A DNA stretch of 31,281 nt from a virus. The stretch spans positions 1 through 31,281 of IMG/VR virus record IMGVR_UViG_3300035158_000062, one strand, 5' to 3'. Below, one piece after another: positions 7,833 to 27,166 of this stretch; within the stretch, counting starts at the first letter, position 1, and the number at the start of each line of letters is the position of its first letter. The notes below the pieces were generated by a model. The model searched no databases. It was not told the DNA's origin and saw only the letters and a list, made by a program, of their open reading frames with translations. The position numbers and the translations under genes are program-made.

Positions 7833-7834
7833 AC

Positions 7835-11231: not shown

Positions 11232-11720
11232 GTGAAGAAGTACGCACCTGCAATCGCAGCCGCTTTCGTTCTGACGCTGGCCCTTGCGCTGGCCGGGAAC
11301 ATCAAGGTGAAGCACACTGGTCCGTCAGGCCAGGGCGACCTGGTTTATTACGCGCCTTCAACAGGCACCACGAACATTCACTTTGGGACCAACGGCGTTG
11401 AGCTGCTGACCCTCGTGGATGGTTCACTCGAAAGTGCCGGTCTGAGTCTGGCCAGCAACAAGTTTCTCGTGGGCAACGCTTCTGGCGTGAGCGCCGAGGT
11501 GACGCTGTCCGGCGACGTGCTGAGTTCCTTTGACGGGACCATGGCACTGCAGACCAACGTGGTCGTCGACGCTGACATCAATGCCAGCGCGGCCATCGCC
11601 GAGAGCAAACTGGCGCTGGTCGGCGTGACCACCAACATCTTCGACGTGATGATGGGCGACAGCACCACGAACCGTCTCGTGTTCACTAACGGCATCTTCA
11701 AGTCGTTCTCGTCTCTGTAA
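11232..11720 (+). CDS. Exported fibre-like repeat protein in the head module
   Basis: A 162-residue protein from GTG 11232 (AGGGAG upstream). A typical Sec signal peptide (KKYAPAIAAAFVLTLALALA, cut near residue 22) leads into a beta-rich region. The later part contains NKFLVGNASGVSAEVTLSGD and DADINASAAIAESKLALVG, a motif pair I associate with phage fibre and structural proteins in environmental phages. A leader on a gene inside the head module is odd, because virions assemble in the cytoplasm. It may be a displayed head fibre, a periplasmic or surface protein, or a virion protein with a hydrophobic membrane anchor. Assignment is by motif memory. Confidence 0.6.
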   Translation: MKKYAPAIAAAFVLTLALALAGNIKVKHTGPSGQGDLVYYAPSTGTTNIHFGTNGVELLTLVDGSLESAGLSLASNKFLVGNASGVSAEVTLSGDVLSSFDGTMALQTNVVVDADINASAAIAESKLALVGVTTNIFDVMMGDSTTNRLVFTNGIFKSFSSL

Positions 11721-11731
11721 GGGGGTGCGTC

Positions 11732-12187
11732 GTGCGCGATAAAATGCTGAAGGGTGCTCTTGCCGTCTGTATTGCGGCGCTGATTGTCTTGGCCTTTGCC
11801 ATCAAGTACGAGGCCAACGCCGAAGGCACCGTCACGCTCGGCGACAGCCCGAACCGACCCATGCGGTCGGTCGCGTACAGCTGGGCGATCACGACCAACG
11901 CGTTTGTTGCAGCCGACGCCACCAGGCCGTCCGGTCAGATCGAGCGCGTGGTGATCCCCGGCCAGTCGACGACGAACACCTACGACGTGCAGCTGTTGGA
12001 CACCAACGGCGTCGACCTGTTCGCTGGGGCTTTCACGGGCCTGACCAACGCGACCAAGGAAGTGCGGTCTGGGCACAGCACGAACTTCCCCGTGGCCGTC
12101 GACGGATCACTGACCCTCGTTGTTACGAACTACGCCATAGGCGCACACGTCGAGACCAGTGGAGTGGTCCGCGTGTACTGGAGGTAA
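11732..12187 (+). CDS. Exported small virion-region protein
   Basis: A 151-residue protein starting at GTG 11732, with AAGGGGG just upstream. Residues about 5-29 form a hydrophobic leader ending in EANA, a plausible AxA-type cleavage site. The mature part is a beta-sandwich-like domain (PMRSVAYSWAITTN, QIERVVIPGQST, YDVQLLDTNGVDLFAGA). I recall similar leaderless domains in phage structural modules. It follows the fibre-like gene by 11 bases and precedes a small lysine-rich gene. Function unknown; possibly a surface or neck-associated protein. Confidence 0.55.
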   Translation: MRDKMLKGALAVCIAALIVLAFAIKYEANAEGTVTLGDSPNRPMRSVAYSWAITTNAFVAADATRPSGQIERVVIPGQSTTNTYDVQLLDTNGVDLFAGAFTGLTNATKEVRSGHSTNFPVAVDGSLTLVVTNYAIGAHVETSGVVRVYWR

Positions 12188-12193
12188 AAGACC

Positions 12194-12445
12194 ATGTCGC
12201 AAGAATTGAAGATCGAAGACCGCAGCGTCGTGTCCGTAGTCGACAAGGGCAAGCAGATTGTCATCATGCACGGCAACACCGGCTCGGGTCGGAATGAAAC
12301 GCATGTGCTGACCCGCGAGAATGACGACGAGGTGCTGAAGGTCCACGTCACGCTCGGCGAGGAAGCACCGGCGAAGAAGCCTGCCAAGAAGGCTGGCAAG
12401 AAGAAGAAGTCCGAAGACGGTGAAGACGGCTCCGGTAGCGAATAA
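12194..12445 (+). CDS. Small protein with lysine-rich tail
   Basis: An 83-residue protein with GGAGGT 10 bases before its ATG. The first 55 residues look like a small beta-rich domain (KQIVIMHGNTGSGRNETHV). The rest is a KKPAKKAGKKKK run followed by an acidic Glu/Asp/Ser end. Such basic tails occur in proteins that contact DNA or the acidic capsid interior. It lies between the exported pair and the first connector, so a head-related role is possible. Confidence 0.6.
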   Translation: MSQELKIEDRSVVSVVDKGKQIVIMHGNTGSGRNETHVLTRENDDEVLKVHVTLGEEAPAKKPAKKAGKKKKSEDGEDGSGSE

Positions 12446-12474
12446 GCAGATCACCCAGCCACGAGGTACGAAGC

Positions 12475-13344
12475 ATGCTTCTGACGAACCTGGCAAAGTA
12501 CAAGGTCTATCTGGGACTGGACACTGCCGACACGGACGACGACGGGCAACTGACGGCGATCATCACGGCGGCGTCTGCGATGATTGCCACTGTGCTCGGT
12601 CGCACGTTCGAACAGGCTGAATACCGGACGTGGCTGGATGGCACCGGCGGCCAGTACCTGCGCCTGCCGAACTACCCGATCAACGACATCCTGCAGGTCA
12701 GCCTGCAGGAGCAGCGCGTTGCGACCCTGCAGAACAGCGGGGCGCAGCGTGCCATGGTCGCCTGCGACGGCACGACGCTGAAGCTCACGGACGTGTCGAC
12801 GGCTGGCGTGAAGACCACGAACGAGATCACACTGGCCGACTACCCGACAGTGACGGCGCTGGCAGCACAGATCGAGACATTCAGCGGCTGGTCCGTGACG
12901 ATCGACAGCGGTGAAGGCACCGAGTACACGCCGAACATCAAGCCCCTGCGGGCAATGGATGCCACGGCGACGGGGCGGGATGCCGAACTGATCGTGCCGA
13001 TCGAGAGCGAGTCCGGCATGCTGGTCGATGAGACACACAGGTTGCTGCAGCGCGAACCAGGTTGCGGCTGGCCGCGTGGTCGTCAGAACGTGTTTGTCTG
13101 GTACGATGCCGGCTATGACTGCCCAGCCATTGACGGTGGTCCAGATGACGGCAACGTGCCGCCCGAGCTGGAAGCCATCACGAACGAGATCGTGCAGCAG
13201 ATATTTGACGCTAGCGAGGTCGACGCGAACATGGAGTCCGAGCGCATCGGGAACTACCAGTACAAGCTGGGCAGCAACCGCGTGCGCGGCGTAGTTACGA
13301 GCCGGCTGCGTCAGCTGAACTTCTTCCGTAATTACATGATTTGA
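12475..13344 (+). CDS. Head-tail connector (adaptor, HK97 gp6-like)
   Basis: A 289-residue protein. The N-terminus (YKVYLGLDTADTDDDGQLTAI, then ITAASAMIATVLGR) and the C-terminal helix match the phage adaptor family that binds under the portal. This protein is longer than typical adaptors (about 100-200 residues). The extra part, about residues 75-200, is beta-rich with TLKLTDVSTAGVKTTNEITL and looks like an inserted domain that could decorate the neck. GAGGT lies upstream of ATG 12475. Followed by stopper, gp10-like and tail-completion genes, the normal order. Confidence 0.75.
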   Translation: MLLTNLAKYKVYLGLDTADTDDDGQLTAIITAASAMIATVLGRTFEQAEYRTWLDGTGGQYLRLPNYPINDILQVSLQEQRVATLQNSGAQRAMVACDGTTLKLTDVSTAGVKTTNEITLADYPTVTALAAQIETFSGWSVTIDSGEGTEYTPNIKPLRAMDATATGRDAELIVPIESESGMLVDETHRLLQREPGCGWPRGRQNVFVWYDAGYDCPAIDGGPDDGNVPPELEAITNEIVQQIFDASEVDANMESERIGNYQYKLGSNRVRGVVTSRLRQLNFFRNYMI

Positions 13345-13353
13345 GGTGGCCGG

Positions 13354-13683
13354 GTGAGCATTCGCAGCCTGATCAAACGTGGTCCGGTGGTCGAGGTCTA
13401 CACCGTCACCACTGGCCAGGACAGCGGCGGCGGCCCTGTTCCTGTTGAGTCCCTGCAGTTCACGGCTCACGCATTCCGGCAGACCCTGTCCGGCAATGAG
13501 ACGCTGATGGGCGGCACGGAAGGCACGATCGTCACGCACCGCTTCTTCTTCCGCAAGAACGTCACGCTGTACGAGTCGGACGTGATCAAGTACGGGGGCG
13601 ACACCTACGACATCCAGTTCATCGACAACCCTGAAGCGTTCACCCACCACTTTGAAGTGCTGACGCACAGGAGGCGGTCCTGA
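13354..13683 (+). CDS. Head closure / stopper-like protein
   Basis: A 109-residue protein from GTG 13354 (GAGGT upstream). It shows the small beta-barrel pattern of head-tail joining proteins: TAHAFRQTLSGNE, THRFFFRKNVTLYESDVIKYGGDTYDI. In such phages a protein of this size and place seals the portal channel after packaging. It ends in a TGATG overlap with the next gene. The call rests on pattern and position. Confidence 0.65.
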   Translation: MSIRSLIKRGPVVEVYTVTTGQDSGGGPVPVESLQFTAHAFRQTLSGNETLMGGTEGTIVTHRFFFRKNVTLYESDVIKYGGDTYDIQFIDNPEAFTHHFEVLTHRRRS

Positions 13684-14213
13684 TGCCGTCAGTGTTTGAC
13701 AAGGGGGCGAACAGGTTTCGAGATGTCACCACTGGCCGCTTCGTCGCGGCAGGCACTGGGACGACCGACAAGCCAGCGGCAGCGGCTACAGAGAAGAGCA
13801 GTCGGGGCGGCCAGAAGTCTGCCACGAAAGGTGGTGGTGGTTCCAACTTCTACCCCGGCAAGTTCACTGGCACCATGATCAAGAAGAAAAGCCGCCAGCT
13901 ACGGATCATTGCCGTGAAGCTGGAAGCCGACATAATCTCGAACTTTTCCGCTGGCAACGCATCCGGAGAGACGCCGTCGGCTGCGTTTGAGATCCCCCGC
14001 GTGGTCACCGGCACGCTGAAGCGTTCAATCGGGCGGCAGAAGATCAGTCGCTTGGTGTACCGGGTGGGCAGCAGCCTGAAACCGCAGGGGGGGCACCCGA
14101 GCTACGCATGGCTGCTGGAGATCGGCACAGAGAACATGCTGCCCCGGCCTTGGCTGCGTCCAGCTTTCGATCGCAACCGTGAAGAGATGACCCGCATCCT
14201 GAGTGAGATATGA
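13683..14213 (+). CDS. HK97 gp10-like neck/tail connector
   Basis: A 176-residue protein. The C-terminal half has the signature of the HK97 gp10 family: YAWLLEIGTENMLPRPWLRPAFD, close to the usual 'y...vEfGT..mparPflrpA'. The first 60 residues are Gly/Ser/Ala-rich and probably flexible. Members attach to the tail-terminator end of the neck. It starts in a TGATG overlap and ends in an ATGA overlap with the next gene. Confidence 0.82.
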   Translation: MPSVFDKGANRFRDVTTGRFVAAGTGTTDKPAAAATEKSSRGGQKSATKGGGGSNFYPGKFTGTMIKKKSRQLRIIAVKLEADIISNFSAGNASGETPSAAFEIPRVVTGTLKRSIGRQKISRLVYRVGSSLKPQGGHPSYAWLLEIGTENMLPRPWLRPAFDRNREEMTRILSEI

Positions 14214-14632
14214 GCAACGAAATACGCGACGGAATCATGACCGTGTGGAATAGCGTCGACGGGAACGACGCCCGCAGCGTCACACCTGGCGGCCTGTGGA
14301 ATGGGCGAGCCAAGGAACAGCAGAACATGGTCTACCCCTACGCCACGTTTACGGTGGTTTCCGCGTTTGAATCTGATACAATGGGCAGCGAAATGGAAGG
14401 GCCGCTGGTCCAGTTCACTGGGTGGACGGACAAGTTGAGCAGCACCGAAGCCTGGACAGTGATCCGTCAGATCAAGACGCTTTACCGCAACAGGCTGTTC
14501 GCAGTCAGTGGTGACTGGGGGATGATCATGGCCATGCCGGTGCAGCCGGGGATGGAGCTGTTCGACGATGTCACGAAGCACTGGGGCGTGACGATGGACT
14601 TTCGGTTCATGCTTGGGAAGAACAACGCGTAG
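14210..14632 (+). CDS. Tail terminator/completion protein (DUF3168-like)
   Basis: A 140-residue protein after the gp10-like gene and before the tail tube. It has the size and shape of tail completion proteins: a helical start (EIRDGIMTVWNSVDG), YPYATFTVVSAFES in the middle and a C-terminal beta strand (WGVTMDFRFML). This protein caps the tail tube at the neck and sets where the head attaches. The ATG overlaps the preceding stop (ATGA). Sequence evidence is moderate. Confidence 0.65.
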   Translation: MSNEIRDGIMTVWNSVDGNDARSVTPGGLWNGRAKEQQNMVYPYATFTVVSAFESDTMGSEMEGPLVQFTGWTDKLSSTEAWTVIRQIKTLYRNRLFAVSGDWGMIMAMPVQPGMELFDDVTKHWGVTMDFRFMLGKNNA

Positions 14633-14647
14633 GAGAAGGAGAACGAA

Positions 14648-15088
14648 ATGAAACTGAAGGCACTGGCAGTGGGTTGTCTGGTCACACTGGCGGCCACTGT
14701 TGCGTTCGCGGATCCGGGCGACGTGGTCGAACCGGCCAGCACCAACCTGGTGAACGCACGCAGCGACGCCAACAACGAATCGCTGGGCGGCACCTATGTG
14801 GTAGGCTCCACGCTGCTGCTCACGAACTGCTACTGCTTCGACGCAGATGGCAACACTCAGGGGCTGGACAATGTGACCGTCGAGATCACAATCGGCACGA
14901 CCAGCTCGAACAACGTCTACACTGGCACAGTCTATGCGGTGGGCGTGGACACGAACTTCTGGTATCTCAGTCTCGAGGTGCCGGACGTCAGCCCGTCGAC
15001 GCTGCAGCTACAGACGAAGCTGGAAGACGAGAACACCAACATCTACTACTACCCGCTGAAGAGGGTGGGCTACCGGGACGCACTGTAA
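14648..15088 (+). CDS. Exported protein between tail terminator and tail tube
   Basis: A 146-residue protein with strong ribosome binding (AGGAGAAGGAG) and a clear Sec signal peptide: KLKALAVGCLVTLAATVAFA, cut after AFA at about residue 21. The mature part is beta-rich with TVEITIGTTSSNN, VYTGTVYAVGVDTNFWYLSLEVPD and a Cys pair (CYC), suggesting an Ig-like fold. Its place between two core tail genes is unusual for an exported protein. It could decorate the tail or be a surface/periplasmic protein expressed with the late genes. Confidence 0.6.
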   Translation: MKLKALAVGCLVTLAATVAFADPGDVVEPASTNLVNARSDANNESLGGTYVVGSTLLLTNCYCFDADGNTQGLDNVTVEITIGTTSSNNVYTGTVYAVGVDTNFWYLSLEVPDVSPSTLQLQTKLEDENTNIYYYPLKRVGYRDAL

Positions 15089-15119
15089 GCGCTCGGTCAG
15101 GTAAGAAGGAGACACTACA

Positions 15120-15497
15120 ATGGGCGAAACAATTGCAGTACACGGGCACAGCGGTGCTGTGCAGGGCGGCAACGGTGCGAGCAACGTGCAGGAGTGGTCC
15201 GGCACGCTCGTCGAAGAAGAGGTCATGGCGACCAACATGGACGGCGAAGGTTATCAGGACGTGATCCCCGGCACCAAGGGCTGCAGCGGCAGCTTCACGT
15301 GCATCGGCGTGGCGCCGACCACCGGCATCTCTGACAGCCTCGTGCTGATCACGGATAGTGCGGAGAAGGTCAAGATCAGCGGCAAGGCTCTGATCAGCCA
15401 GGTCGAGGTTTCGTCTACTGCCACTGCCACCACGCCGGTCACGTACTCGGCGAACTTCCGGTACAAGGCCGCGTTCACCGTTGAAATCGCAACGTAG
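15120..15497 (+). CDS. Major tail protein (tail tube)
   Basis: A 125-residue protein with AAGGAG upstream. It has the compact beta-rich pattern of tail tube subunits: an N-terminal strand (ETIAVHGHSGAVQGGNGASN), WSGTLVEEEVMATNMDGEGY, GTKGCSGSFTCIG and AEKVKISGKALISQVEVSST. It precedes the chaperone and tape measure genes, exactly where tubes are found. Tail tube hexamers stack along the tape measure. Confidence 0.8.
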   Translation: MGETIAVHGHSGAVQGGNGASNVQEWSGTLVEEEVMATNMDGEGYQDVIPGTKGCSGSFTCIGVAPTTGISDSLVLITDSAEKVKISGKALISQVEVSSTATATTPVTYSANFRYKAAFTVEIAT

Positions 15498-15505
15498 GGG
15501 GTGAC

Positions 15506-15967
15506 ATGGTAGACGCACACGAACTCGCTGACACACCGTTCGAGGCCGAACTGAATGGTCGGAAGCTGAAGCTGCACTGCCTCACCCTGAAGCAGTTCGC
15601 AGCCGAGTACCAGTCCAAGGTGATCAGCCAGTACTTGGAGAACGTGAACCGCATGGTCGCGTCGCAGGGACTGGTCGGCAAAGAGAAGGCGCTGTATCTG
15701 GCTGAATCCACAGCCATGATGCCCCGCGACGGTGAGCTGGAGCAGGAAGCCCTGAACGGTATCGCATCGCTGGAAGGCATGGCCCGCGTCATATTCTTCG
15801 CCGCACAGAAGGAGCATCCCGAACTCAAGTTCGAGGAAGTCGAAGACCTGGTCACGATCCAGACGGTCAGCGAAGCTGGCACGCTGGTCAACATGGTCTT
15901 CGGGTCTAACGTGCTCACGCTGGGCACAACTGCTGACAGCGAGTCGGAGGGCGACGAGGGAAACTGA
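15506..15967 (+). CDS. Tail assembly chaperone, short form (gpG-like)
   Basis: A 153-residue acidic helical protein just after the tail tube and 8 bases from its stop, with AGGGGG upstream. Helices include LKLHCLTLKQFAAEYQSKVI and FFAAQKEHPELKFEEVEDLV. It ends in GGA-AAC-TGA, with the slippery heptamer GGGAAAC at 15958-15964, as in lambda G (GGGAAAG). Most ribosomes would stop here to give the short form. In lambda-like phages this protein binds the tape measure with the longer GT form. Confidence 0.85.
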   Translation: MVDAHELADTPFEAELNGRKLKLHCLTLKQFAAEYQSKVISQYLENVNRMVASQGLVGKEKALYLAESTAMMPRDGELEQEALNGIASLEGMARVIFFAAQKEHPELKFEEVEDLVTIQTVSEAGTLVNMVFGSNVLTLGTTADSESEGDEGN

Positions 15968-16311
15968 CAGGGGGGAGGCTCGGTGAGCTGTTCCGTGCAG
16001 ACTGGGGCGAGGTGGTCGGCGTCTTCGCTGAAGCATACGGCACCTGCAACCCGGACGACGTGTTCGAGCTTACGCTTCCCCAGTTCTTCGTCTACTTTGA
16101 ACGCGCTCAGCGGATCCTTCAGACCCGCGCCGAAGCTGCTGCGGTTGCCATGTTGGGCGGCATGACCGGGACTGCGCCCGTTCGCTCTTCCGAGGCGGGC
16201 AACGCAGAACTGGGACGTGCCGTCCGTGAAGTGTCAGAACAAAACCAGAATGGCCAGGCTGGACTGGCCGACGTGTTTGGAGTGATACGCCGTGGCAGAA
16301 CAGATCGGTGA
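15506..16311 (+). CDS. Tail assembly chaperone, long form by -1 frameshift (gpGT-like)
   Basis: Read as join(15506..15964, 15964..16311): after GGA-AAC the ribosome slips back one base and continues CTG-ACA-GGG. The second frame is open from 15937 and codes for 115 coherent residues (LTGGRLGELFRADWGEVV, then YGTCNPDDVFELTLPQFFVY), giving a 268-residue fusion. There is no ribosome-binding site at the GTG 16012 of that frame, so it is not a normal separate gene. A minor fraction of translation makes this protein, needed in a set ratio for tail assembly. The rate and any downstream stimulator cannot be seen. Confidence 0.85.
15958..15964 (+). promoter_or_regulatory. GGGAAAC -1 slippery site
   Basis: G-GGA-AAC sits immediately before the TGA stop of the short chaperone. 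It fits the X-XXY-YYZ pattern and differs from the lambda G/GT site (GGGAAAG) only in the last base. Downstream purine-rich sequence with a short GCTC/GAGC stem could help pausing. Confidence 0.85.
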
Positions 16312-18712
16312 TGCATTTGTCCAAGTCGGCGCTGACATCTCGCAGTACAACAGCAAGATGCAGCAGGTCCGCACGTCGTTCAACCGACTGGGCGATGGCC
16401 TGACCCGTGTTGGCACACGCCTGACCACTCGCGTCACCCTTCCCATCCTTGGCATCGGCACCGCTGCTGGCAAGATGGCTGTGGACTTTGAAGCAGCCAT
16501 GCGCAACGTGAACGTCATCGCCCGTGAGGGCAGCGAGCAGTTCGCCAACACCAGAGAGGCAGTCCTTAATCTGGCGCGGGAGATGGGCAAGCAGCCGACC
16601 GGGCTGGCCGAAGCCCTGTTCGGCATCAACTCCGCTGGCAAGAAGGGCGCCGAAGGTCTGGCCGTTCTTGAGGAAGCCACCCGTGCCGCGGTCGCAGGCA
16701 ACACTGAAGTCGCCACCACCGCCAAGGCTATCACTGGTGTCCTGAACGCGTACAACCTGTCGGTCGAGGAAGCCGCTGACGTATCCGACATTTTGTTCAA
16801 GACGAACGAAGAGGGTGTGCTGACGGTCCAGGAACTGGCCGAAACCATGGGCGACGTATCAGCCACGGCAGCTGCGGCCAAGGTGCCGTTCGATGAGGTG
16901 GCCGCGGCGATCGCCACCATGACCAAGGGTAACATCAACGCGGCAGAATCCACGACCGCGCTGAACCGCCTGATCCTGGCCTTCATCAAACCGACCGAAC
17001 AGATGGCCCGTGCACTGGCCTCCACCGAGGAAGAGTCCGGTGCGCTGCTTCTGCAGACCCGTGGGCTGGCCGGTGCTGTAGCATTCCTGCAGGAGAAGAC
17101 CGGAGGCAGCGCACAGGCCGTCGCGGACATGGGACTGGATGCCCGATCACTGAAGGCTGCACTGTCCCTGACCCGTGCCGATGGTGAAGTCTTTGCGGAC
17201 GCGCTGGACAAGATCGCGATAAAGGCCAACCGAGCAGGTGCCACGCAGGCCGCGTTCGAGGAACAGACCAAGGCGACCGACTTCACGCTGCGCCAGGCAT
17301 CATCAGCGCTGGCCGTGGCATCGATCAAGTTGGGCGACGCACTGGCCCCTGCGCTGATCGAAGGCGCAAAGGCACTCAGCAAGCTGGCCGACTTCATTTC
17401 AGGGCTGACCGACAACCAGCGCAAGTGGCTGGTCGGCATCGGGCTGGTGGTTGCCGCGATCCCGCCGCTGCTGGGGCACACCGAGAATTTGATCAAGGCC
17501 GTCGGTCTGCTGAAGGTCGCATACGATCGCCTGGCTGGTTCGGCGACACGGGCAGCTGGAGCGAGTGACGCCCAGTCAGCAGCAGCTCAGCGGGCTGCCA
17601 TGACGAATAGGGGGGCGGCGGGATCGATGCAGACGCGGGCCATGACCGGCTCGTTGCTGTTCCCGCATGCGCTGCAGCAGGCGCAACTGAAGCAGGCATA
17701 CGCCCGCAGGCTGGCCGGGGGTGGTGGCGCAGCAGCTGGCACTGGCAAGATCTCTGGCGGCGTCGGCATGGGCGGCGGGGCTGCTGGTGCGGCGCTTGGG
17801 GTTGTCGGAGCTGCGCTCGTGGGTTGGGCTGCTGGTCGTTCCATAGCAGGCATGGACGTCGGCGGCGGCGAGACGTTCGAAGAACGCATGGTGCGCGGCA
17901 TCAACGGCGTGAACATCGAGCGGCTGAAGAAAGAGCGGGAGTACGACAAGATCCACGAGCGGCTCGACATCCAGCGCCGCGGCAAGCAGATCGACATCCT
18001 GGAGGAACTCGGCAACCTGTCCACGAAGCAGGTGCTTGAGCTGTACGACCTCGAACTGGAGCAGCTGAAGGAACTGGTGGCTGCGAAGAGGGCCGCGCTG
18101 GAAGAGGAGAAGAAAGCCACCGAAGAGGCCAAGAAGCAGTTTGAGGGTCAGAAGGTGATGAGCCAGGCGCACAAGGATCTGCTCGACACCCTGCGCGACA
18201 TCGGCTTCAGGAACGCTGACATCAACACCCAGATCAAAATGCAGGGTGAGAACCTCGCCAAGGCACGGAAGGCAGCCGCGGACGCCGAGGGCGATAGGAA
18301 GGCCGAGCTGCTTGCCGAGGTAGCCGCCGAGCAAGAGAAGCTGATGCTGCTCGAGCAGGAGCGTGATTTGGAAACCCGCAGGGCCGAAGAGAACGCACAG
18401 GACCGGAAGCGGGCAGCGAAGGAAATGGCGGGGCTGAAAAACACAGTCAAGACCGTGTTCGGTTTCACTGGCATCGCGGAAGCCGCACGCAATACGCAGA
18501 TGAGCATCGCGCAGGCCATGAGGGTTGCAGCCGGACGGGGCCGTGGTGGCATGTCCCCGGCAGAGGAACGGATGGCCAACGCCCAGAAGGTGGCCGACGC
18601 AAAGCGCGAGCGAGCCGAGCGGATCGCAGAGCAGCAGCGAACCAACATGGTCGAGAAACTGTCCAGCATCGCGGCTGCGGCTGGCGAGGAATTTGTACTG
18701 TTCGCGCAGTGA
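16292..18712 (+). CDS. Tail tape measure protein
   Basis: An 806-residue protein from GTG 16292 (GGAG upstream). Residues 60-350 contain the tape measure core (MAVDFEAAMRNVNVIAREGS, PTGLAEALFGINSAGKKGA), with many Ala-rich helices. A hydrophobic segment lies near residues 378-395 (RKWLVGIGLVVAAIPPLLG), followed by a Gly/Ala-rich stretch and a long coiled coil (about residues 520-620, rich in Glu/Lys). Tape measures set tail length and enter the cell envelope during infection. At about 0.15 nm per residue, this would give roughly 120 nm of tail. Confidence 0.9.
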   Translation: MAEQIGDAFVQVGADISQYNSKMQQVRTSFNRLGDGLTRVGTRLTTRVTLPILGIGTAAGKMAVDFEAAMRNVNVIAREGSEQFANTREAVLNLAREMGKQPTGLAEALFGINSAGKKGAEGLAVLEEATRAAVAGNTEVATTAKAITGVLNAYNLSVEEAADVSDILFKTNEEGVLTVQELAETMGDVSATAAAAKVPFDEVAAAIATMTKGNINAAESTTALNRLILAFIKPTEQMARALASTEEESGALLLQTRGLAGAVAFLQEKTGGSAQAVADMGLDARSLKAALSLTRADGEVFADALDKIAIKANRAGATQAAFEEQTKATDFTLRQASSALAVASIKLGDALAPALIEGAKALSKLADFISGLTDNQRKWLVGIGLVVAAIPPLLGHTENLIKAVGLLKVAYDRLAGSATRAAGASDAQSAAAQRAAMTNRGAAGSMQTRAMTGSLLFPHALQQAQLKQAYARRLAGGGGAAAGTGKISGGVGMGGGAAGAALGVVGAALVGWAAGRSIAGMDVGGGETFEERMVRGINGVNIERLKKEREYDKIHERLDIQRRGKQIDILEELGNLSTKQVLELYDLELEQLKELVAAKRAALEEEKKATEEAKKQFEGQKVMSQAHKDLLDTLRDIGFRNADINTQIKMQGENLAKARKAAADAEGDRKAELLAEVAAEQEKLMLLEQERDLETRRAEENAQDRKRAAKEMAGLKNTVKTVFGFTGIAEAARNTQMSIAQAMRVAAGRGRGGMSPAEERMANAQKVADAKRERAERIAEQQRTNMVEKLSSIAAAAGEEFVLFAQ

Positions 18713-18719
18713 GGTAGAC

Positions 18720-19580
18720 ATGGCAACTGTTGAGAAGTTTGAAGGTTTCAATTTCGAGAACGGCGAGAACGGTCAGAGCGGAAAGCGCACGTTCCTGGTG
18801 TCTGATAATCTGGTATCCACTCGCAACGCCAAGATTCCGAGAATCGGCGAACGCTTCCCGGACCTTGACACGTTTGCCCGCCAGGACGTGGCCGTGGAAA
18901 TCGTCGACGTCATGGAGAACTGCCTGTGCCGCAAGGTTGGCGTCAAGCTCATTGCCGACGGTCAGGGCAGGCAGCTCTTGGTGGTAGCCGACTACAACAC
19001 CAAGGTTCAGGACGACTCGGGCATCGTCGGGGGCACAGGCACCATCGGCGACCCGCAGCTGGACGACATGCCGCGGGAGATCGGCATTGTGGGGGAATCG
19101 ATCAATGTCGCGGCGCCTGGCGTCTGGAAGTGGGCCAGTGACAATGTGTCCATTCAGACGGAAGGTGAGAACGCAATCAGCCTGCCGGTGCGGATAATCA
19201 CAGGATCACTGACCATCACGAAGGTGGTCGAGGAATTTGACATCCTCAAGTACTTCAGCCTGGTGGGTCGCGTGAACAGCGAGAAGTTCCCGCAGTTCGA
19301 GGATGGCGCACTGGGTGAAGGCTTTGGCCCCGGCACTTGGCTGCTGACCGGCCTGAACCTCGAGGAGTTTTATGACGACCGCGGCAATTCAAAGTGGCGT
19401 ATGAAGCCGAATCTGATCTTCCGCTCACCGGACGGCAACCCTACGGTGGACGATCCGCGTGGATGGAATGATGTATGGCGTCCTGATAAGGGCTTTTGGG
19501 ACCGACCCCGCCACTATACTGGCACCGGCTTTCTGTATTGCTCTGCAGATCTGAACGAACTCTTCCGCACGGACGAATAG
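18720..19580 (+). CDS. Tail-module structural protein, unknown family
   Basis: A 286-residue protein following the tape measure, with GAGGT before ATG 18720. It is soluble, with no signal peptide, and has regions such as VEIVDVMENCLCRKVGVKLI, GSLTITKVVEEFDILKYFSL and NSKWRMKPNLIFRSPDGN, ending with GFWDRPRHYTGTGFLYCSADL. I recall similar proteins in environmental phages at the tail-tip position but cannot name the family. It probably belongs to the tail tip or baseplate because of its place. The longer frame from 18525 lies inside the tape measure and is rejected. Confidence 0.6.
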   Translation: MATVEKFEGFNFENGENGQSGKRTFLVSDNLVSTRNAKIPRIGERFPDLDTFARQDVAVEIVDVMENCLCRKVGVKLIADGQGRQLLVVADYNTKVQDDSGIVGGTGTIGDPQLDDMPREIGIVGESINVAAPGVWKWASDNVSIQTEGENAISLPVRIITGSLTITKVVEEFDILKYFSLVGRVNSEKFPQFEDGALGEGFGPGTWLLTGLNLEEFYDDRGNSKWRMKPNLIFRSPDGNPTVDDPRGWNDVWRPDKGFWDRPRHYTGTGFLYCSADLNELFRTDE

Positions 19581-19582
19581 CC

Positions 19583-20140
19583 ATGCTCGTATTGCCCACC
19601 GACCTGAGAGATCCACGGGCGACTGACAAGCGGCTGTGGCTACCGATGATAAAGGCAGTCCTGAAGCTGTGCCGTGCATGGAACAACTTCTGGGTGGATC
19701 CCGATTACTTCGAGTACAGCATGGATGAGTCTGGGGTGAAGCTATACGGCAAACCCCAGCCGTTCCCCTACCACCTGTTTGCGCTGGGCTTCCGGTGGAT
19801 AAACGGCACCACGATCAGGCTGAACGCTGGCGATGTGAACTTCAGCGGCGACTTCCAAGTGCCGGTCACGAAGTCGGGAAACACGAACCTGACCTACGAT
19901 CCATACGTGTGGGTCTGGATACGGGTGCAGCGCCGCGACATCCGCAACACTACTGGGGTGTGGACCGTGTCAGCGAACAAGCCGCAGAGCGACGACACCT
20001 ATTTCAAGTTGCCCGTCTACAAGTTCGAGAAGATCGGGCTGGACAGCTACAGCCTGGTGGAGGACGAAGACGAACCGCCCGTTCGGCATCTCGGTGACTT
20101 CCACTTCGGCAATCCGCTTGCCACCAACCCGGTGTCGTGA
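19583..20140 (+). CDS. Tail-module structural protein, unknown family
   Basis: A 185-residue protein starting two bases after the previous stop. It opens with LPTDLRDPRATDKRLWLPMI and contains aromatic-rich stretches (WNNFWVDPDYFEYS, YDPYVWVWIRVQRRDIRN), with a beta-rich middle. It has no leader. Its TGA stop overlaps the ATG of the 725-residue gene (TGATG). A tail-tip role is inferred from position. Confidence 0.6.
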   Translation: MLVLPTDLRDPRATDKRLWLPMIKAVLKLCRAWNNFWVDPDYFEYSMDESGVKLYGKPQPFPYHLFALGFRWINGTTIRLNAGDVNFSGDFQVPVTKSGNTNLTYDPYVWVWIRVQRRDIRNTTGVWTVSANKPQSDDTYFKLPVYKFEKIGLDSYSLVEDEDEPPVRHLGDFHFGNPLATNPVS

Positions 20141-22317
20141 TGCGTTCTTATGCCATAGTTATCATATGGTTATTGACAGCCACGGCGGCGTCCGCGCAGT
20201 TCACAAACGTTCCTGTCGCGACATCGTCCAACGGTGCGGAATACTGGCTGGCACTCCCAGACGAACCGTTCAAGCAGACGTGGTCAGGGACCACTGAACG
20301 GATCGAAATCAGTGGCGCGTTCCTGTCAGACAGTAACCTGCCGTCGATCGTCTACACCTGCGACGCTGGCTTTACGTCCAGCGTGATCACCAGCGTCTGG
20401 GCAGGCGTCACCAACGTGTCCACGAATCTTTACACTGACACCACGAACATCACGACCAACACGTTCCTGCCGTTCGAGTACACCTACACCGACGTGACCG
20501 GGCTGCACACTGGGACATGCGTGCCATCGCTGAACGTGGAATTCCTGGAGCGCCAGCGGTTCATCCTGCGTGAGCGACAGGAAGACAAGTTCGTGAACGC
20601 GGACGACGCGACCGGAACACCGCCGACGTTCGACAACTTCTTCGCCACGACCACAAACGCGAGCGGACAGCACATCACCAACCTGCCGAACTATGACGCC
20701 GTGCGGCTGTGGCAGTCTGCAGCAGTCGGCACGACGTGGGGCTACACGACGAACCAGTGGGGGCTGTTTGTGGGCAACGAGGATCACGTGTTCTGGACGT
20801 CCATTCCCGACCGTGGGTACAGCACCGTGCTTGTCGAGATGTACTACGACGGCAGCAACTGGGCCGCGACCCCTTCCATGTGGGGCGACTTCCGGCTGTT
20901 CTACACGAACGATATCTTGCCAGTTGCCATTTACGAATCACCCTACGGCACCAGCCCCACGCCTCCGGCAGTCAGCGTGACAGTGTCCGGGGAAGTATTC
21001 ATCGCAGGCATCAACCTTCCCAATGAGTTGATCACTACGACGGAAACCTTCAGCGTCACGGGGTGGACGAACGTGCTGTCGAACCAGTGGTTCCGGTTTG
21101 GCTACTGGTACGAAGGCGACAACGAGTGGATCTACGAAGGCGTCGACGTGTCCGGTGGCAGTCCCCTGACTGGTGACGTCATCAAGGTGCTGTGGACCAA
21201 TGCGCACTTTTTTGGGTTTGGTCCGCGTGTCGGCGATACCTACCGCGTGCCGTTCGATACGTGGCGCCTGTACGAAACCGACTTCGACGAGCCGTACTAC
21301 CTGGTCACGAAGATGCGCTGGACGCAGCGAGCCGGGCAGTACTCCAACGCATTCAGTGATCTGGTGACGTGGGAGGGATTCGGCTGGGCGGAGGCGAAGC
21401 TGAACGCCACGACCAGTTCAGTGACTGACGAGCCGTATGCGTGGATCCAGGCGCCCCCGGATCCGACCGTCAACCTCGGAGCCCCCTCGACGAATAGCCT
21501 TACCACGAACATATGGGACGGAGGCGACGGGATCCTCAACCCCCCGACCCATATTGACACGACCCCGAGCCCGGACCCGCTCACCCTCACGAATTGGGCC
21601 GTATACGGCTGGGACCATCGGCTCGACTTCGATATCGTCGGCGACGTTACCTTGAGCAATAGCGGCTTGAATGCCTGTACGGCGATATGGAATGTCCGCG
21701 TCACGTCCCCGGCCGGCGTCACCGGATACGGCTCGAATATCACGGTCTTGGGCGCCGGCGCGAGTTCGGTTGAATCGTACTCGTTCGCTCACTCGAACAT
21801 GGTTATCGACGAGACCGAGACCATCAATACGTACCGGCTCGACGTCTTGCAGGTTATCCCGTACGGGCATTCTGCGCTCGTCCACGTCGAGAGCGACTAC
21901 GCCGTAAGCGGGCCCTCGGTCGACACGTACGTCCGGGCAAAGCGACACATGGGCGTGCTGTTCCACGAGTCAGTGACGACCAACTACAGCAGCGCAAAGG
22001 ACTGGTATGCTCGCGGCCAGACAAACGTGCCTGGCAGTCCGAACGCGATCACTGGTGCGCCGATCTGGGAAGCCGAAACGTGGGCTGGTGCGCCGGGATT
22101 CGAGAACTTGACCAACATCCATCACAAGTACCTCACGACCGCTGAACTTGATAACAGCCCTTTTGTGACCTACAATCTGACCATGGACACCAACATCCCC
22201 TTTGTCGACGAACGCCACGCCCTGAAGTACTGGGCACTTGACGAGGCGAACGAGCCGCGAGTGGTCTGCAGGTGGGATGCCACCAATGCGCCTAGCGGTG
22301 GTATTCGCTGGAGGTAG
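20140..22317 (+). CDS. Large exported fibre/receptor-binding candidate with codon-shifted central domain
   Basis: A 725-residue protein with a Sec leader (RSYAIVIIWLLTATAASA, cut before Q). The mature part is rich in Thr, Asn, Trp and Tyr, with repeated 'TN' pairs, and seems built from beta-sandwich domains. Residues about 442-604 (nt 21463-21951) have a different codon style: of 12 Leu codons none is CTG, and of about 16 Val codons none is GTG. Flanking sequence uses CTG and GTG heavily. That domain includes SNSGLNACTAIWNVRVTSPA and looks Ig-like. I chose ATG 20140, in a TGATG overlap; GTG 20137 adds only one residue. Confidence 0.65.
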   Translation: MRSYAIVIIWLLTATAASAQFTNVPVATSSNGAEYWLALPDEPFKQTWSGTTERIEISGAFLSDSNLPSIVYTCDAGFTSSVITSVWAGVTNVSTNLYTDTTNITTNTFLPFEYTYTDVTGLHTGTCVPSLNVEFLERQRFILRERQEDKFVNADDATGTPPTFDNFFATTTNASGQHITNLPNYDAVRLWQSAAVGTTWGYTTNQWGLFVGNEDHVFWTSIPDRGYSTVLVEMYYDGSNWAATPSMWGDFRLFYTNDILPVAIYESPYGTSPTPPAVSVTVSGEVFIAGINLPNELITTTETFSVTGWTNVLSNQWFRFGYWYEGDNEWIYEGVDVSGGSPLTGDVIKVLWTNAHFFGFGPRVGDTYRVPFDTWRLYETDFDEPYYLVTKMRWTQRAGQYSNAFSDLVTWEGFGWAEAKLNATTSSVTDEPYAWIQAPPDPTVNLGAPSTNSLTTNIWDGGDGILNPPTHIDTTPSPDPLTLTNWAVYGWDHRLDFDIVGDVTLSNSGLNACTAIWNVRVTSPAGVTGYGSNITVLGAGASSVESYSFAHSNMVIDETETINTYRLDVLQVIPYGHSALVHVESDYAVSGPSVDTYVRAKRHMGVLFHESVTTNYSSAKDWYARGQTNVPGSPNAITGAPIWEAETWAGAPGFENLTNIHHKYLTTAELDNSPFVTYNLTMDTNIPFVDERHALKYWALDEANEPRVVCRWDATNAPSGGIRWR

Positions 22318-22319
22318 CC

Positions 22320-22898
22320 ATGTCGGACCTGACCAACATCAAAGAAATCTACATCAACGTCGACCTTGGGGTGCAGACCACGTCCCAGAACCTGACCATC
22401 GTGCGCCGCGGTCGGGTGCGGTTGTGGCGCATGCAGCAGGTGATCTTCCGTGCGCATCTGAAGCTGGACGCGGACACGTACTGGACGACCGACACTGGCA
22501 CCGAGTGGGCATGCAACATGGACTACCGCTTCGGCGAGTACGATGACCCGGTCGCCAGCGACAATGACCAGTTCAACATTGGCGACGACTGGCCGGGCGT
22601 GGTCAGCCCTGAGAATGGCAAAATCTGCTGGCGGTCGTACCTGAACACGACCGAACTTGCTGACGCGATGGGCACCGACGACCGCAAGGATTTCCTCGCC
22701 GAACTGTGGGTGAAGCCACCGGGCGAAGATTTCAGGGTCTTGGCGCAGCTCAACATTGACATGCGCAACATCTCGACGGACATCTCCACGACCACGCCAC
22801 TGACTTACACGCTGTCGAGCGCACTGGCCTTCGACGGCGACGACGTGGTCCTGTACTATCCTGACGGCAGCGTAGCCCAGAGGTGGACAAAGACATGA
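22320..22898 (+). CDS. Tail/fibre-module protein, unknown family
   Basis: A 192-residue protein beginning two bases after the preceding stop, with GAGGT in the upstream gene end. Leaderless, with a basic N-terminal region (LTIVRRGRVRLWRMQQVIFRA) and later beta-rich sequence (RVLAQLNIDMRNISTDIST, DGDDVVLYYPDGSVAQRW). The N-terminal pattern resembles upper baseplate or fibre-anchor domains, but I would not assign a family. It sits between two exported large fibre candidates. Confidence 0.55.
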   Translation: MSDLTNIKEIYINVDLGVQTTSQNLTIVRRGRVRLWRMQQVIFRAHLKLDADTYWTTDTGTEWACNMDYRFGEYDDPVASDNDQFNIGDDWPGVVSPENGKICWRSYLNTTELADAMGTDDRKDFLAELWVKPPGEDFRVLAQLNIDMRNISTDISTTTPLTYTLSSALAFDGDDVVLYYPDGSVAQRWTKT

Positions 22899-24634
22899 TG
22901 AAGCGAACGATTACCCTTGCATTCCTGAGCATGCTGGCCCTGACGCTGGGCGTCGTGTGGATCGCTCACGGTGGCGGCATCCATTCCACGGTCGAGTTCT
23001 ACCGTGACGTGTCGGTGGGTGAGTACCAGGCCATGAGTGGCGTGGTCGTGTACGTCACCAACAGCACAGGCGGCAGCCTGACGAACGGCTGGCACACCAA
23101 CTACTTCCGGGTCGGCGGCACGAACAGGCTGGGGCGCACCCCGGTGGGTGCAACATTTACTAACATTGCGTTCGGCACCACCAACCTGTCGAACAGCATC
23201 GTGCTCAACTGGGAGCTGCAGGACGGCATCGAGACGCCCGTGGTGCAGTGGTCAGCGGACGACACGACCTGGACCAACGTGTTCGTGTGCACGGTCACGC
23301 AGACCAGCCTGACCTGGAACGGGACGAACGTGGTGTGGACGAACCAGAACTTCACCAGCGACTACGCCGTGGTCCCGCTGCCGAGCGTGCCATGGACAAA
23401 CGGTGCGGGCAACCCGGTAGACTCGCGGCCAGTGACAGCCGCAGTTGATATGGCCACCAACCCGCTGCTGAATGTGTCCGTGCTGGATATGAGCACCGAC
23501 ACCTACTACAGCAATGACGTCTGGTGGGACGATGGCACGCAGGTGTGGGACGTGTTGAACGGCACCTACTACGAAGTGAGCGGCACCTATGACGTGTTCG
23601 ATGCGCTGTTCCAGGAACTGAAGGACACGAACGGGGTCATGTCCCATGACTGGCAGGACCGCACGCTCCATGACACCAACGGATCCGTGGCGCTGGACTA
23701 CAGCAGCCTGACGGTCACGGTGACTGCGCTGGAGATCAACGGGCAGCTGATCCTTGCCACCAACGGACTGGGCACGAACGTCAACGCCAACGGGTACACG
23801 TTCACGAATGCTCGGCAGGGCGTCGTGTCCGGGGAGCTTGCCACGGTCGAACAGATATGGGATGGCACGAACGGTCTGATCAACAGCGACGGCAGCGTTG
23901 CGATGGCTGCGGATCTGGACATGGGCAGTAACTCCATTATCAACGTGGATACCGGCACCATTGTCTACATCGACGGCGACAGCGTGCAGGACAAGATCGG
24001 CGCGGCCAGTAACAACGTGCTCGCAGAAGCAGAGACCTACACGGACGGGGCGACCAACGGGCTGGCATCGGAAGTGTTCGTGACCAACAAGACAGTCGGG
24101 GTATCGAACTCGCTGGTGGCCTACGCAGACAGCCTGACCAATGCGGTGGATTTGGCTACGGTCCTGAGCAACGGCACGGATGCGACAGATCAGGACATCA
24201 CGAATGTCGGCACCCTGTACGCGGACTATGTGGTGACGGCGCAGCAGGACTGGAAGTTCGGCATTACCAACATCCAGCCGGTCAGCGCGACCGAGTCGAA
24301 TATCGTCACGGCCAGCTTCACACCACCCTATGACGGCTACTATGACATCACGCCGGGGGCACGGTTCCACGCCCAGTTCTACACGACCCCGCCTGTGTCA
24401 TGGACGAACTACCTCAAGCGCAGCGGGGTCAGCATCAGGAGCCGCGACGAAGACGACGGCAACTTAGTGCTCAATAAATGGTTCGTTGCGGGTGGTCAGG
24501 CATGGGGGGCCAAGGTTCACTTGACGAACGGCGTGAGCGAGACCTTCACGTTCTCATGGATCGCGCCGACTACCGGCAAGACCGTGGCTGTTGAGAACGC
24601 ATCAATCAAGATCGAATATCTGGGAGCGCAGTAA
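22895..24634 (+). CDS. Exported tail-fibre-like protein
   Basis: About 579 residues from ATG 22895 (ATGA overlap with the previous stop; AGAGGTGG upstream). The longer GTG start at 22883 adds only VDKD. A hydrophobic leader (TITLAFLSMLALTLGVVWIA) is followed by Thr/Asn-rich beta domains. Around residues 330-370 is a fibre signature (DGSVAMAADLDMGSNSIINV), typical of trimeric tail fibres. The C-terminus (about residues 460-579) looks like a C1q/TNF-type or receptor-binding beta domain. This would bind the host surface. Confidence 0.65.
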   Translation: MMKRTITLAFLSMLALTLGVVWIAHGGGIHSTVEFYRDVSVGEYQAMSGVVVYVTNSTGGSLTNGWHTNYFRVGGTNRLGRTPVGATFTNIAFGTTNLSNSIVLNWELQDGIETPVVQWSADDTTWTNVFVCTVTQTSLTWNGTNVVWTNQNFTSDYAVVPLPSVPWTNGAGNPVDSRPVTAAVDMATNPLLNVSVLDMSTDTYYSNDVWWDDGTQVWDVLNGTYYEVSGTYDVFDALFQELKDTNGVMSHDWQDRTLHDTNGSVALDYSSLTVTVTALEINGQLILATNGLGTNVNANGYTFTNARQGVVSGELATVEQIWDGTNGLINSDGSVAMAADLDMGSNSIINVDTGTIVYIDGDSVQDKIGAASNNVLAEAETYTDGATNGLASEVFVTNKTVGVSNSLVAYADSLTNAVDLATVLSNGTDATDQDITNVGTLYADYVVTAQQDWKFGITNIQPVSATESNIVTASFTPPYDGYYDITPGARFHAQFYTTPPVSWTNYLKRSGVSIRSRDEDDGNLVLNKWFVAGGQAWGAKVHLTNGVSETFTFSWIAPTTGKTVAVENASIKIEYLGAQ

Positions 24635-24885
24635 TGAGTAAGAGCACTGGAATACTGTTGGCTGTGGCAACCCTGTTGGCTGGGACCGTGGGCGTGGCTA
24701 TTGGAGCGCACTACTTTCAGGAAGAGGTGTGCTTTCTTGAGGGCGCACAGATGGACTGCCTGCACCTTGTCCACTTCACGCCGATACCCAACGCACCTCG
24801 CACGAATCAGGGCGATGTCTACTTCGATTCCGACCTTGACGAAATCATGATCTGCCGGGACGGGACGAACTACGAGGCTCTCTGA
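24634..24885 (+). CDS. Small exported protein with fibre-type C-terminal motif
   Basis: An 83-residue protein in a TAATG overlap with the previous stop. Residues 5-25 form a leader or anchor (GILLAVATLLAGTVGVAIGA). Residues 50-83 hold PIPNAPRTNQGDVYFDSDLD and end ICRDGTNYEAL, a short motif I associate with phage fibre/tail proteins that reads 'P..P.....GDvwfds....l..r.dGt.w..l'. It may be a minor fibre or accessory piece for the neighbours. Confidence 0.6.
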   Translation: MSKSTGILLAVATLLAGTVGVAIGAHYFQEEVCFLEGAQMDCLHLVHFTPIPNAPRTNQGDVYFDSDLDEIMICRDGTNYEAL

Positions 24886-26681
24886 TGCGGCGTGCGCTGA
24901 TAGCCTGCGTGCTCCTGCTGCTGCCAGCCGTGGCGCTGGCTGGCACGAACGTGCTGTGGGTGGCTGGTCCCGGCTGGCTGATTCCCGCGAATCCTGGCGT
25001 GCTGGGTGGCAGCCCTGTCGTGACACCAGGCGTGCTCTACGGTGACCCCGCGTTCTATGGCTACTGGCCGCTAGAGATCACCAACGATCCGAACGACAGC
25101 GCCACCCCGAACCTCGGCTACTACACGAACCGCTGGTACATGGACTATGGCCGGGGCACACCACGCGAAGGCACGCACTACGTCATGGCCAACGGCAACC
25201 ACTACATCCTGATGAACGGTGCGGCGACCGCACTGCGTGCTGACCTGACCAACGAGGTGACATCGGACGTGCTCACGGCGGTCACCACCATGACTACCGT
25301 GACAATATCGGGCTGGATCAAACCACAGAATCCCACGAACACGGACAGCGGCGGCGAACTGGAAGGGTATGTCTGGGACATCTCCCTGGACGATACGTCC
25401 CAGGGCTTCCGGCTCTTCCACCGCAACCATGACGGGGCAGCCAAGAACTTCTTCCGGCTGGGCTACCGGACCAACCTCCCCTCTTACTTCTACTATTTCC
25501 TGGACGGGCAGGAGCGGCAACTCAACCAGCGGTGGTGCCATGTAGCCGCGTCGCAGAACGGGGTGAACGGCTGGCGCTTCTGGCTGGACGGCAGCGAGTA
25601 CACCGGGCGACTGGATCTGGCAGGCAGTGCACCCTACAATACGAACGCCTGGATGACTGACCTGATGCAGTACACCAACGCAGGCACGCCGAAGTCGTGG
25701 CGTCCCAACAGCTTCACCGTCGGCAACTTCTGGAACGGTACGCTGGACGCCTTCAACGGCCCGGTGGACGAATGGAAGTTCAGCACCAACGCGACCGAAG
25801 CCTACATCACTAACCTGATGTTCTCCGGGTTTGCCACGGCCAGCAACTTCTGGGGCTTTACGCGGGCCACCAACTGGTCAGACCCGTGGAGCAATAGCTT
25901 GGTGATGCACTTGGACATGGAGGAGGTGGGCGTCTTCACGAGCGCTTATCACGGCGATGTGAGGACCGGCATTCTGTGCCAGGTGGACGTCAGCAACTCC
26001 ATGGCGTTCAACAGCCGCTATAGTGACTGGTTCACAAACATCGTGGTGGACACGAACATAAACGGACGCACCGAGCATGCGCTGGAACTGAACACCACGA
26101 ACCTGACCGGGACACGCCGCTGGCTGGGTCCGCAGAATCTGCCCACCGAGATGAGCAACAACAACAGCTACACCGTCATGATGTGGCTCAAGTCCACGCC
26201 CAACAATCTGACATATGACGACGGCATGACAGCCTGGGCAGCGCACTCCGATTCAGACCGCTGCGCCCAACAGAACATGCTCGAACACTACTCCTGGGAG
26301 TGCGTGACCAACCCGCCGGGAACTACCACGTATAAGGTCTTCAACAAGATCACTACGCGACGGATGCGAATGGATGAGCGCTGGTTTCACTGGGCGGTCA
26401 CCGTCACCAACAACACGACGGCCAAGGTCTACATCGCCGGGGAACTGCGCCAGACGGGGCCGACCACGAACATTCCGACGCTTTCCGTGCACCAGATCAG
26501 CAAGCGGCAGGCCAGCAACCTGGACTGGCGGTCCAACTATCAGGGGCTGATGGATGACTTCAGGGTCTACGATGTGGTACTGTCGCAGGAAGCCATCGAC
26601 GAGATCCGCATTCGGACCTGCCCCGTTCGGTACGGCTCCTATGGGACATTCCCCGGATACGGCAACGTAGAGGAACGATGA
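24885..26681 (+). CDS. Exported adhesin with two LamG-like (concanavalin-type) domains
   Basis: A 598-residue protein with a leader (RRALIACVLLLLPAVALA, cut near residue 19). The first LamG-like domain spans about residues 55-305: GYWPLEI, ISGWIKP, RWCHVAASQNG, WRFWLDGSEYTG, VDEWKFS. The second spans about 335-585: LVMHLDMEEVG, YTVMMWLKS, RWFHWAVTVTNN, KVYIAGELRQTG, LMDDFRVYDVVLSQEAIDEI. Both show the order typical of LamG_3 jelly rolls, which bind sugars. The role is probably adhesion to surface glycans. The gene overlaps its neighbours by one base and four bases. Confidence 0.8.
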   Translation: MRRALIACVLLLLPAVALAGTNVLWVAGPGWLIPANPGVLGGSPVVTPGVLYGDPAFYGYWPLEITNDPNDSATPNLGYYTNRWYMDYGRGTPREGTHYVMANGNHYILMNGAATALRADLTNEVTSDVLTAVTTMTTVTISGWIKPQNPTNTDSGGELEGYVWDISLDDTSQGFRLFHRNHDGAAKNFFRLGYRTNLPSYFYYFLDGQERQLNQRWCHVAASQNGVNGWRFWLDGSEYTGRLDLAGSAPYNTNAWMTDLMQYTNAGTPKSWRPNSFTVGNFWNGTLDAFNGPVDEWKFSTNATEAYITNLMFSGFATASNFWGFTRATNWSDPWSNSLVMHLDMEEVGVFTSAYHGDVRTGILCQVDVSNSMAFNSRYSDWFTNIVVDTNINGRTEHALELNTTNLTGTRRWLGPQNLPTEMSNNNSYTVMMWLKSTPNNLTYDDGMTAWAAHSDSDRCAQQNMLEHYSWECVTNPPGTTTYKVFNKITTRRMRMDERWFHWAVTVTNNTTAKVYIAGELRQTGPTTNIPTLSVHQISKRQASNLDWRSNYQGLMDDFRVYDVVLSQEAIDEIRIRTCPVRYGSYGTFPGYGNVEER

Positions 26682-27166
26682 TGCGCTCGAGAACAGACAA
26701 CTGGCTGCCTCCTGCACTGCTGCTTTTCACGATCGTCACATTGGCGATTGCATGGCTGATGGCTGGCCCAACGCTGCGGGCTGCGCAGCCTGACGGCTAC
26801 GTCGAACGCTACATCGTGCTTGCCGTGACGAACGTGCCGACGCCTGCCGAGTCGAACACGTACTTCACCTATCTGAGCCTGACTCAGGCGTCCCGGCAGG
26901 GTGACACCAACCTGCTCACGACCAACAGTATGATCGCTTTCATCACCAACATGGCCGCATTGCCGAACGACCAGAAGCACGGCTATGTCATTTCAAACTT
27001 CAACTGGTGGGCCGACAATCCGACGAACATGGATCCGACCGGCTGGCCCGACCTAACCAACATCACGGACCAGGAGATTGCGGACTGCCAGCACATCGAG
27101 CAGCAGCTTTTCCAAGTGTGGGACATAGAAACAAACGACCTTGCCGGGGGGCAGGCGATATTCTAG
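26678..27166 (+). CDS. Small membrane-anchored or exported protein
   Basis: A 162-residue protein from ATG 26678 (or 26681), overlapping the LamG gene stop. An N-terminal hydrophobic helix (about residues 11-30, PALLLFTIVTLAIAWLMAG) may be an anchor or signal. The rest is Thr/Asn-rich, with LTQASRQGDTNLLTTNSMIA and WADNPTNMDPTGWPDLTN, resembling the fibre neighbours. No family is recognised. Last of the fibre group, before the lysis genes. Confidence 0.55.
   Translation: MMRSRTDNWLPPALLLFTIVTLAIAWLMAGPTLRAAQPDGYVERYIVLAVTNVPTPAESNTYFTYLSLTQASRQGDTNLLTTNSMIAFITNMAALPNDQKHGYVISNFNWWADNPTNMDPTGWPDLTNITDQEIADCQHIEQQLFQVWDIETNDLAGGQAIF

Follow-up and report, generated by a model that had tools for sequence, protein, structure and literature searches.

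Assembly of tailed phages is taught as an entirely cytoplasmic process. In filamentous phages, the virion proteins pIII and pVIII are synthesized as Sec precursors and join the particle outside the cytoplasm, and phage lambda encodes the exported protein Lom in its late region as well as the lipoprotein Bor. Decoration and cement proteins (T4 Hoc and Soc, T5 pb10, lambda gpD, phage L Dec, and chains of Pam1 and GP4) are small, beta-rich, and encoded just after the major capsid protein (MCP). The window analyzed here, the whole 31,281 nucleotides of IMGVR_UViG_3300035158_000062, is a contig of a tailed HK97-type phage in which eight genes of the virion region begin with Sec-type leaders (Table 1). 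The product of 11732 is like the decoration proteins in predicted fold, size, and gene position, but differs in being made with a leader. The eight products would share with pIII and pVIII the status of Sec precursors among virion proteins, although the latter are membrane-anchored in a non-lytic, extruded virus, whereas the present phage is tailed, its capsid is cytoplasmic, and it carries a predicted lysis gene. As with Lom, Bor, and other exported morons, the genes lie among or near late genes; unlike in those systems, the same slot is held by leaderless homologues for at least one family, and eight leadered genes occur in one phage. The new element is comparative, in that predicted leaders stand directly before capsid-accessory proteins that are usually devoid of them in related phages.

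All eight open reading frames (ORFs) were located (genes are named by their start codons; the frames of 20140 and 22895 are also cited as 20137 and 22883), and each encodes a basic n-region followed by a hydrophobic core, in agreement with the preliminary description. The leaders were assessed with a home-made scorer of the n-, h-, and c-regions (basic n-region, hydrophobic core, and residues at −3 and −1), which was checked on ten known signal peptides. The eight genes scored 6.82–9.43, within or above the range of the ten reference peptides from E. coli and filamentous phages on the same scale (6.45–9.07, with pIII and pVIII at 6.45 and 7.81), while the remaining called genes of the window scored at most 5.03 and were in the majority unscorable. 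With an n-region, a core, and small residues at −3 and −1, all eight resemble the reference signal peptides, and a Shine-Dalgarno-like motif lies upstream of every leader start. Cleavage motifs, some of them of the AxA type noticed earlier, were classed as good in six genes, namely 11232 (ALA↓G), 11732 (AFA↓I or ANA↓E), 14648 (AFA↓D), 20140 (ASA↓Q), 24885 (ALA↓G), and 26678 (RAA↓Q), and as weaker in 22895 (AHG) and 24634 (AIG). Whole-protein shuffles reached the observed score in 0–3 cases per 1000, and N-terminal shuffles in 0–5 per 1000 except for 22895 (42 per 1000).

When genes scoring ≥6.4 were counted, the background amounted to 19/1067 genes in relatives sharing the terminase large subunit (TerL), 26/1032 in MCP relatives, and 8/637 in a further MCP set, that is, 1–3% in related phages overall compared with 8/40 genes in the window (Fisher p ~7e-7 to 2e-5 against the three backgrounds). 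These counts back the earlier remark that ordinary head and tail proteins have no leaders and that so many are unusual. The leaders of the eight genes are thus regarded as practically certain, and we strongly infer from their sequences that the products are exported through Sec. Cleavage of the eight precursors is likewise predicted. As to the lipid-associated virion parts suggested earlier, no lipobox was found in any of the eight genes and nothing points to lipid-containing particles. Oxidative folding is unlikely as the common reason for export, because cysteine is absent from the mature products of 11232 and 11732. No account of leaders on virion proteins of tailed phages was found in the open-access literature searched, which covers the field in part; the words of a decoration-protein review include none beginning with "signal", "secret" or "periplasm" (PMC7602432), and target proteins of phage diversity-generating retroelements are without detectable signal peptides (PMC6199706).

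When MCP, portal, and 20137 were each scanned as single proteins, no relatives were obtained; TerL-based scans returned many terminases with few structural genes in common with the window, and MCP-based scans yielded the structural relatives used for comparison. The 11732 family was gathered by iterative hidden Markov model searches as 23 loci (E≤1e-4), in which it lies within a few kb of MCP. Three of the 23 are leadered (the window, L171, and L189), and L183 and L378 raise the leadered members to five, while most others start with M-AGTVTxTE or a similar sequence at a ribosome-binding site, without a leader. The slot between MCP and the connector genes is filled in relatives by these leaderless homologues, which the leadered version replaces with no extra copy; in L171 the gene order is that of the window, i.e., MCP, 10680-homologue, leadered fibre-like protein, and leadered 11732-homologue. 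In L189 the leader ends in ...AYVWA and is followed by AGSAMTFTEVTHGTVK, and the leaderless L170 protein reads M-AGSAMTFTEVTYGTIK. Accordingly, for both L171 and L189 the predicted cleavage product equals the leaderless protein minus Met (...AYVWA↓AGSAMTFTEV compared with M↓AGSAMTFTEV). With the cut chosen by the scorer alone, without consulting homologues, the offset between the mature start and the second residue of the leaderless protein was zero for L171 (against L237, L199, and L215) and for L189 (against L170 and L193). It is therefore highly probable that in this family a leader has been fused in front of a conserved N-terminus.

The leadered/leaderless pattern recurs in unrelated families at the 11232 slot and beside the tail-tube gene. 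At the former, leadered L237:11668 and L210 are set against ~45 leaderless members, most of which begin close to the motif KSxWxxGxLxFYD, and this N-terminal motif, possibly a capsid-anchoring peptide, is retained after the leader in L171, L210, and L237. The motif is common to proteins of the post-MCP slot with differing C-terminal domains (L137:9178, L171:6872, L237:11668, L210:6741, L205, L154:3817, and others). Gene 11232 occupies this slot in synteny with L171:6872; its direct homology to the motif family was not significant, and it matched the minor tail protein family phrog_2012 at 0.006. In the slot before the tail tube, L237:14945 is leadered and L199 and L122 are leaderless, and the scorer cut gave an offset of zero against both; 14648 shares this slot, and no sequence homologue of it was found. 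In the sister phages L156 and L210, the aligned DNA differs by a clean in-frame leader right after a ribosome-binding site common to both, and the downstream gene can also be aligned.

Leaders were further found to cluster in the same phages, the number of same-locus pairs being 10 where 3.1 are expected (p 0.0036, or 0.019 when the window is left out) in a test of 30 leadered genes that include a tape-measure false positive in L192. The densest cases outside the window are L171, with four leadered genes, and L374, with three consecutive ones 3' of MCP (6494–9120), one of them fibre-like. Tape-measure matches in L192 and L193 and alternative starts within the 10680-type gene (L231:6868, L373, and L232) were dismissed as scorer false positives. 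Small leadered proteins also occur in the head/connector region of MCP relatives (L170:13175, L376:10433, L390:17100, L184:7220, L202:12427, and L231:9445); some are fibronectin-III-like, and L170:13175 matched Pfam fn3 just below the cut-off and a Hoc-like PHROG weakly.

When mapped on the MCP tree, the presence of a leader switches four times per family, and parsimony on this tree does not separate gain from loss. The mature domain of the 11732 family (family A) is 71% identical between leadered L189 and leaderless L170, compared with 75% between the leaderless L170 and L193 and 75% for MCP of L170 and L189; it is thus as conserved as in the leaderless pair and nearly as conserved as MCP of the same phages. 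AlphaFold2 predicts a beta jelly-roll fold for the mature 11732 domain, with a mean pLDDT of 77. The capsid chains GP4 8h89_J and Pam1 7eel_H, which we take to be cement proteins, aligned with the model at Z ~7.5, tied with unrelated jelly rolls, and the structure for this reason does no more than fit a role in decoration. No function for the family came from PHROGs, and a sequence search of the PDB gave nothing convincing.

Based on these observations, we tentatively favor, at somewhat less than even confidence, the reading that the Sec precursors are virion accessory proteins that acquired a leader, are exported, and are probably attached to the particles at or after lysis. A Sec leader would have been fused at the start codon of an accessory protein of the decoration, head-fibre, or tail-fibre type, as proposed for 11232 and 11732 and probably also for 14648 and the fibre block 20137–27166, whose genes are probably virion accessory genes. 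The precursor would then pass through Sec, signal peptidase I would remove the leader, giving a mature protein whose N-terminus is almost that of the leaderless homologues in the cytoplasm, and this protein would wait in the periplasm until lysis mixes the compartments and lets it bind finished particles, part of the virion surface being thereby added outside the cytoplasm. Late attachment makes sense chemically, given that T5 pb10, when purified, binds to expanded capsids with picomolar affinity (PMC5292684) and that P22 capsids are bound in vitro by Dec of phage L (PMC7602432); as a step of its own it may be considered possible, if a little short of an even chance. Among the alternatives raised in the preliminary description, an unusual assembly route is hence preferred for at least 11732 and 11232, given the leaderless homologues in the same slots and the fused leaders.

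Several points weigh against this reading. The virion location of the leadered proteins is read from gene position, as is the fusion argument for window 11232 and 14648, since neither has a significant homologue, and no homologues at all were found for the tail-end genes 20137–27166, which are included in the reading by analogy. The scorer-preferred cut of window 11732 (AFA↓I) falls seven residues before the homologous start, the alternative ANA↓E being the one that would give an offset of zero, and the leaders of L210 and L237:11668 have no net-positive n-region and fail the scorer. Moreover, the MCP tree is a quick one with long branches for the window and L174, the B and C pairs are more diverged with a higher pN/pS (0.63–0.69), and the purifying selection acting on the mature domain would also be expected of a protein that works elsewhere than in the virion.

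Such a role is the core of the main rival explanation, in which the leadered proteins are exported to the envelope of the host and either remain in it or are shed, as adhesins, superinfection-exclusion proteins, or lysogenic-conversion proteins built from recycled virion domains. The Sec leaders in themselves, the lectin-like LamG domain of 24885, the Fn3-type leadered proteins of relatives (L170:13175, L376, and L390), and the precedent of Lom and Bor all speak for it. The leadered 11732 version, however, replaces leaderless homologues in its slot and so is not the extra gene, absent from relatives, that a moron would be, and KSxWxxGxLxFYD is kept behind the leader in L171, L210, and L237. 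Nor did the leader genes show promoters and terminators of their own of the Lom/Bor type, as signals of this kind were not above chance (six promoter-like matches against 4.3 expected in a scan covering sigma-70-type promoters only, and eleven terminator-like matches against 14.8 expected). An envelope role is a real possibility, if less likely than the favored reading.

Less probable still is that the hydrophobic N-termini are uncleaved anchors tethering assembly to the inner membrane. The cores could form a transmembrane helix and the sites of 22895 and 24634 are weak, but six genes have AxA-type or similar sites, the predicted cuts coincide exactly with the leaderless N-terminus in three cases outside the window, and the usual topology would turn the domain to the periplasm, away from the capsid. 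We give slightly less credence to the idea that the tail-end group 20137–27166 consists of secreted host-type surface proteins captured with their leaders. It draws on the LamG domain, on Asn/Thr-rich sequence resembling by eye a LamG-like protein with a leader in L103, a contig of Kiritimatiellae, and on the TerL relatives in metagenome-assembled genomes (MAGs) of Verrucomicrobia and Kiritimatiellae; yet no 20137 homologue was found in 193 genomes from the class to which the Kiritimatiellae MAG belongs, 22883 resembles a phage fibre, and 11732 is left unexplained. A start-site artefact, with true starts downstream of an untranslated hydrophobic stretch, is very improbable: internal start codons with weak ribosome-binding motifs make a leaderless form of 22895, 24634, and 26678 possible, but none lies near the mature start of 11232, 11732, 14648, 20140, or 24885, for which the artefact is largely refuted, and in several contigs the leader lies between the ribosome-binding motif and the conserved domain.

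As summarized in Table 1, the window contains an HK97-type siphovirus module in the order TerL, portal, protease, MCP, connectors, tail tube, and tape measure.

Table 1. Leader genes and other features of the window (arrows, predicted cleavage; scores on the home-made scale)
Feature	Coordinates	Strand	Score	Remarks
Terminase large subunit	4022..5362	+		phrog_2, 2.3e-36
Portal protein with MuF-like head-morphogenesis C-terminus	5604..7832	+		phrog_2662, 5.7e-90, nearly full length; head-morphogenesis families also match residues ~490–740
Protease	at 7799
HK97-type MCP	9220..10605	+		Pfam Phage_capsid, 1.3e-27; phrog_10, 7.5e-28
Leaderless gene straight after MCP	10680..11159	+		Widespread family; 73 homologous ORFs in relatives
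Leader gene 1	11232..11720	+	8.31	Leader 11232–11294 (MKKYAPAIAAAFVLTLALALA); fibre-like mature protein
Leader gene 2	11732..12187	+	9.25	23- or 30-residue leader (AFA↓I or ANA↓E); mature part a jelly-roll domain ('MAGTVTxTE' family)
Head-tail connector and tail-completion genes 12475, 13354, 13683, 14210	12475..14632	+		Leaderless; phrog_442, phrog_25, phrog_5, phrog_957
Leader gene 3	14648..15088	+	7.95	MKLKALAVGCLVTLAATVAFA↓DPGD; follows the tail terminator position and precedes the tail tube
Tail tube 15120, chaperone-position genes 15506/16012, tape measure 16292	15120..18712	+		Leaderless; phrog_1407, phrog_1533
Leader gene 4	20137..22317	+	8.51	Start 20140; MRSYAIVIIWLLTATAASA↓Q; ~706-residue mature protein; no PHROG, Pfam, or PDB match
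Leader gene 5	22883..24634	+	6.82	Start 22895; weak cleavage site; tail-fibre-like sequence (by eye)
Leader gene 6	24634..24885	+	7.17	83 aa; weak cleavage site; mature part with three cysteines
Leader gene 7	24885..26681	+	9.43	MRRALIACVLLLLPAVALA↓G; C-terminal LamG/concanavalin-like domain (Pfam Laminin_G_3, 3.3e-16)
Leader gene 8	26678..27166	+	7.9	162 aa; RAA↓Q
Ninth exported product (predicted), unimolecular-spanin-like	27501..27908	+		N-terminal lipobox (LCSGC); C-terminal transmembrane segment

Nearly all homologues of 10680 in relatives sit immediately 3' of MCP, and this gene is a probable head decoration gene by its position. Searches with tblastn using 11732, 20137, 24885, and leaderless homologues found nothing in cultured phages. 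In the early region, a DUF5131 gene (992–1744) has a 42% relative that shares a contig with a terminase relative in L093, and 2088–2819 encodes an N-proximal hydrophobic segment ending in FCCGCQ, possibly of a lipoprotein or membrane protein.

Downstream of the leader genes, 27501–27908, whose GTG start overlaps the preceding stop, agrees by eye with the unimolecular-spanin topology for which T1 gp11 is the reference (PMC6139136), having a lipobox, a C-terminal transmembrane segment, and no periplasmic cysteine; it had no Pfam match and is a candidate unimolecular spanin. The closest terminases include ones in Verrucomicrobia and Kiritimatiellae MAGs, and together with the spanin topology these TerL relatives make a host with an outer membrane likely. 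Four of the contigs (L092, L102, L103, and L104) carry TerL relatives of at most 50% identity to the window, some over short stretches only, and no other match to its structural genes, and represent orphan or remnant terminases. A search of 388 genomes from the phylum Verrucomicrobiota did not find the 11732 family, nor was 20137 found in those of the class mentioned above; around MCP-like matches in Verrucomicrobiota, no leaders were present in the two prophage-like stretches read.

Taken together, the leadered genes suggest that some tailed phages export parts of their particles from the cytoplasm before attaching them. If so, the repeated and precise addition of leaders to capsid-module proteins would mean that virion parts are routed via the envelope and either attached late or made to act on the host surface, a question rendered directly testable by the leadered/leaderless pairs L156/L210, L170/L189, and L237 with L199/L122. 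For annotation, a signal peptide would not rule out a structural gene. More speculatively, and at less than an even chance, some tailed phages may have gained Sec leaders on accessory virion proteins time and again and complete their particles outside the cytoplasm, be it in the periplasm or at lysis, in which case export would be an evolvable switch.

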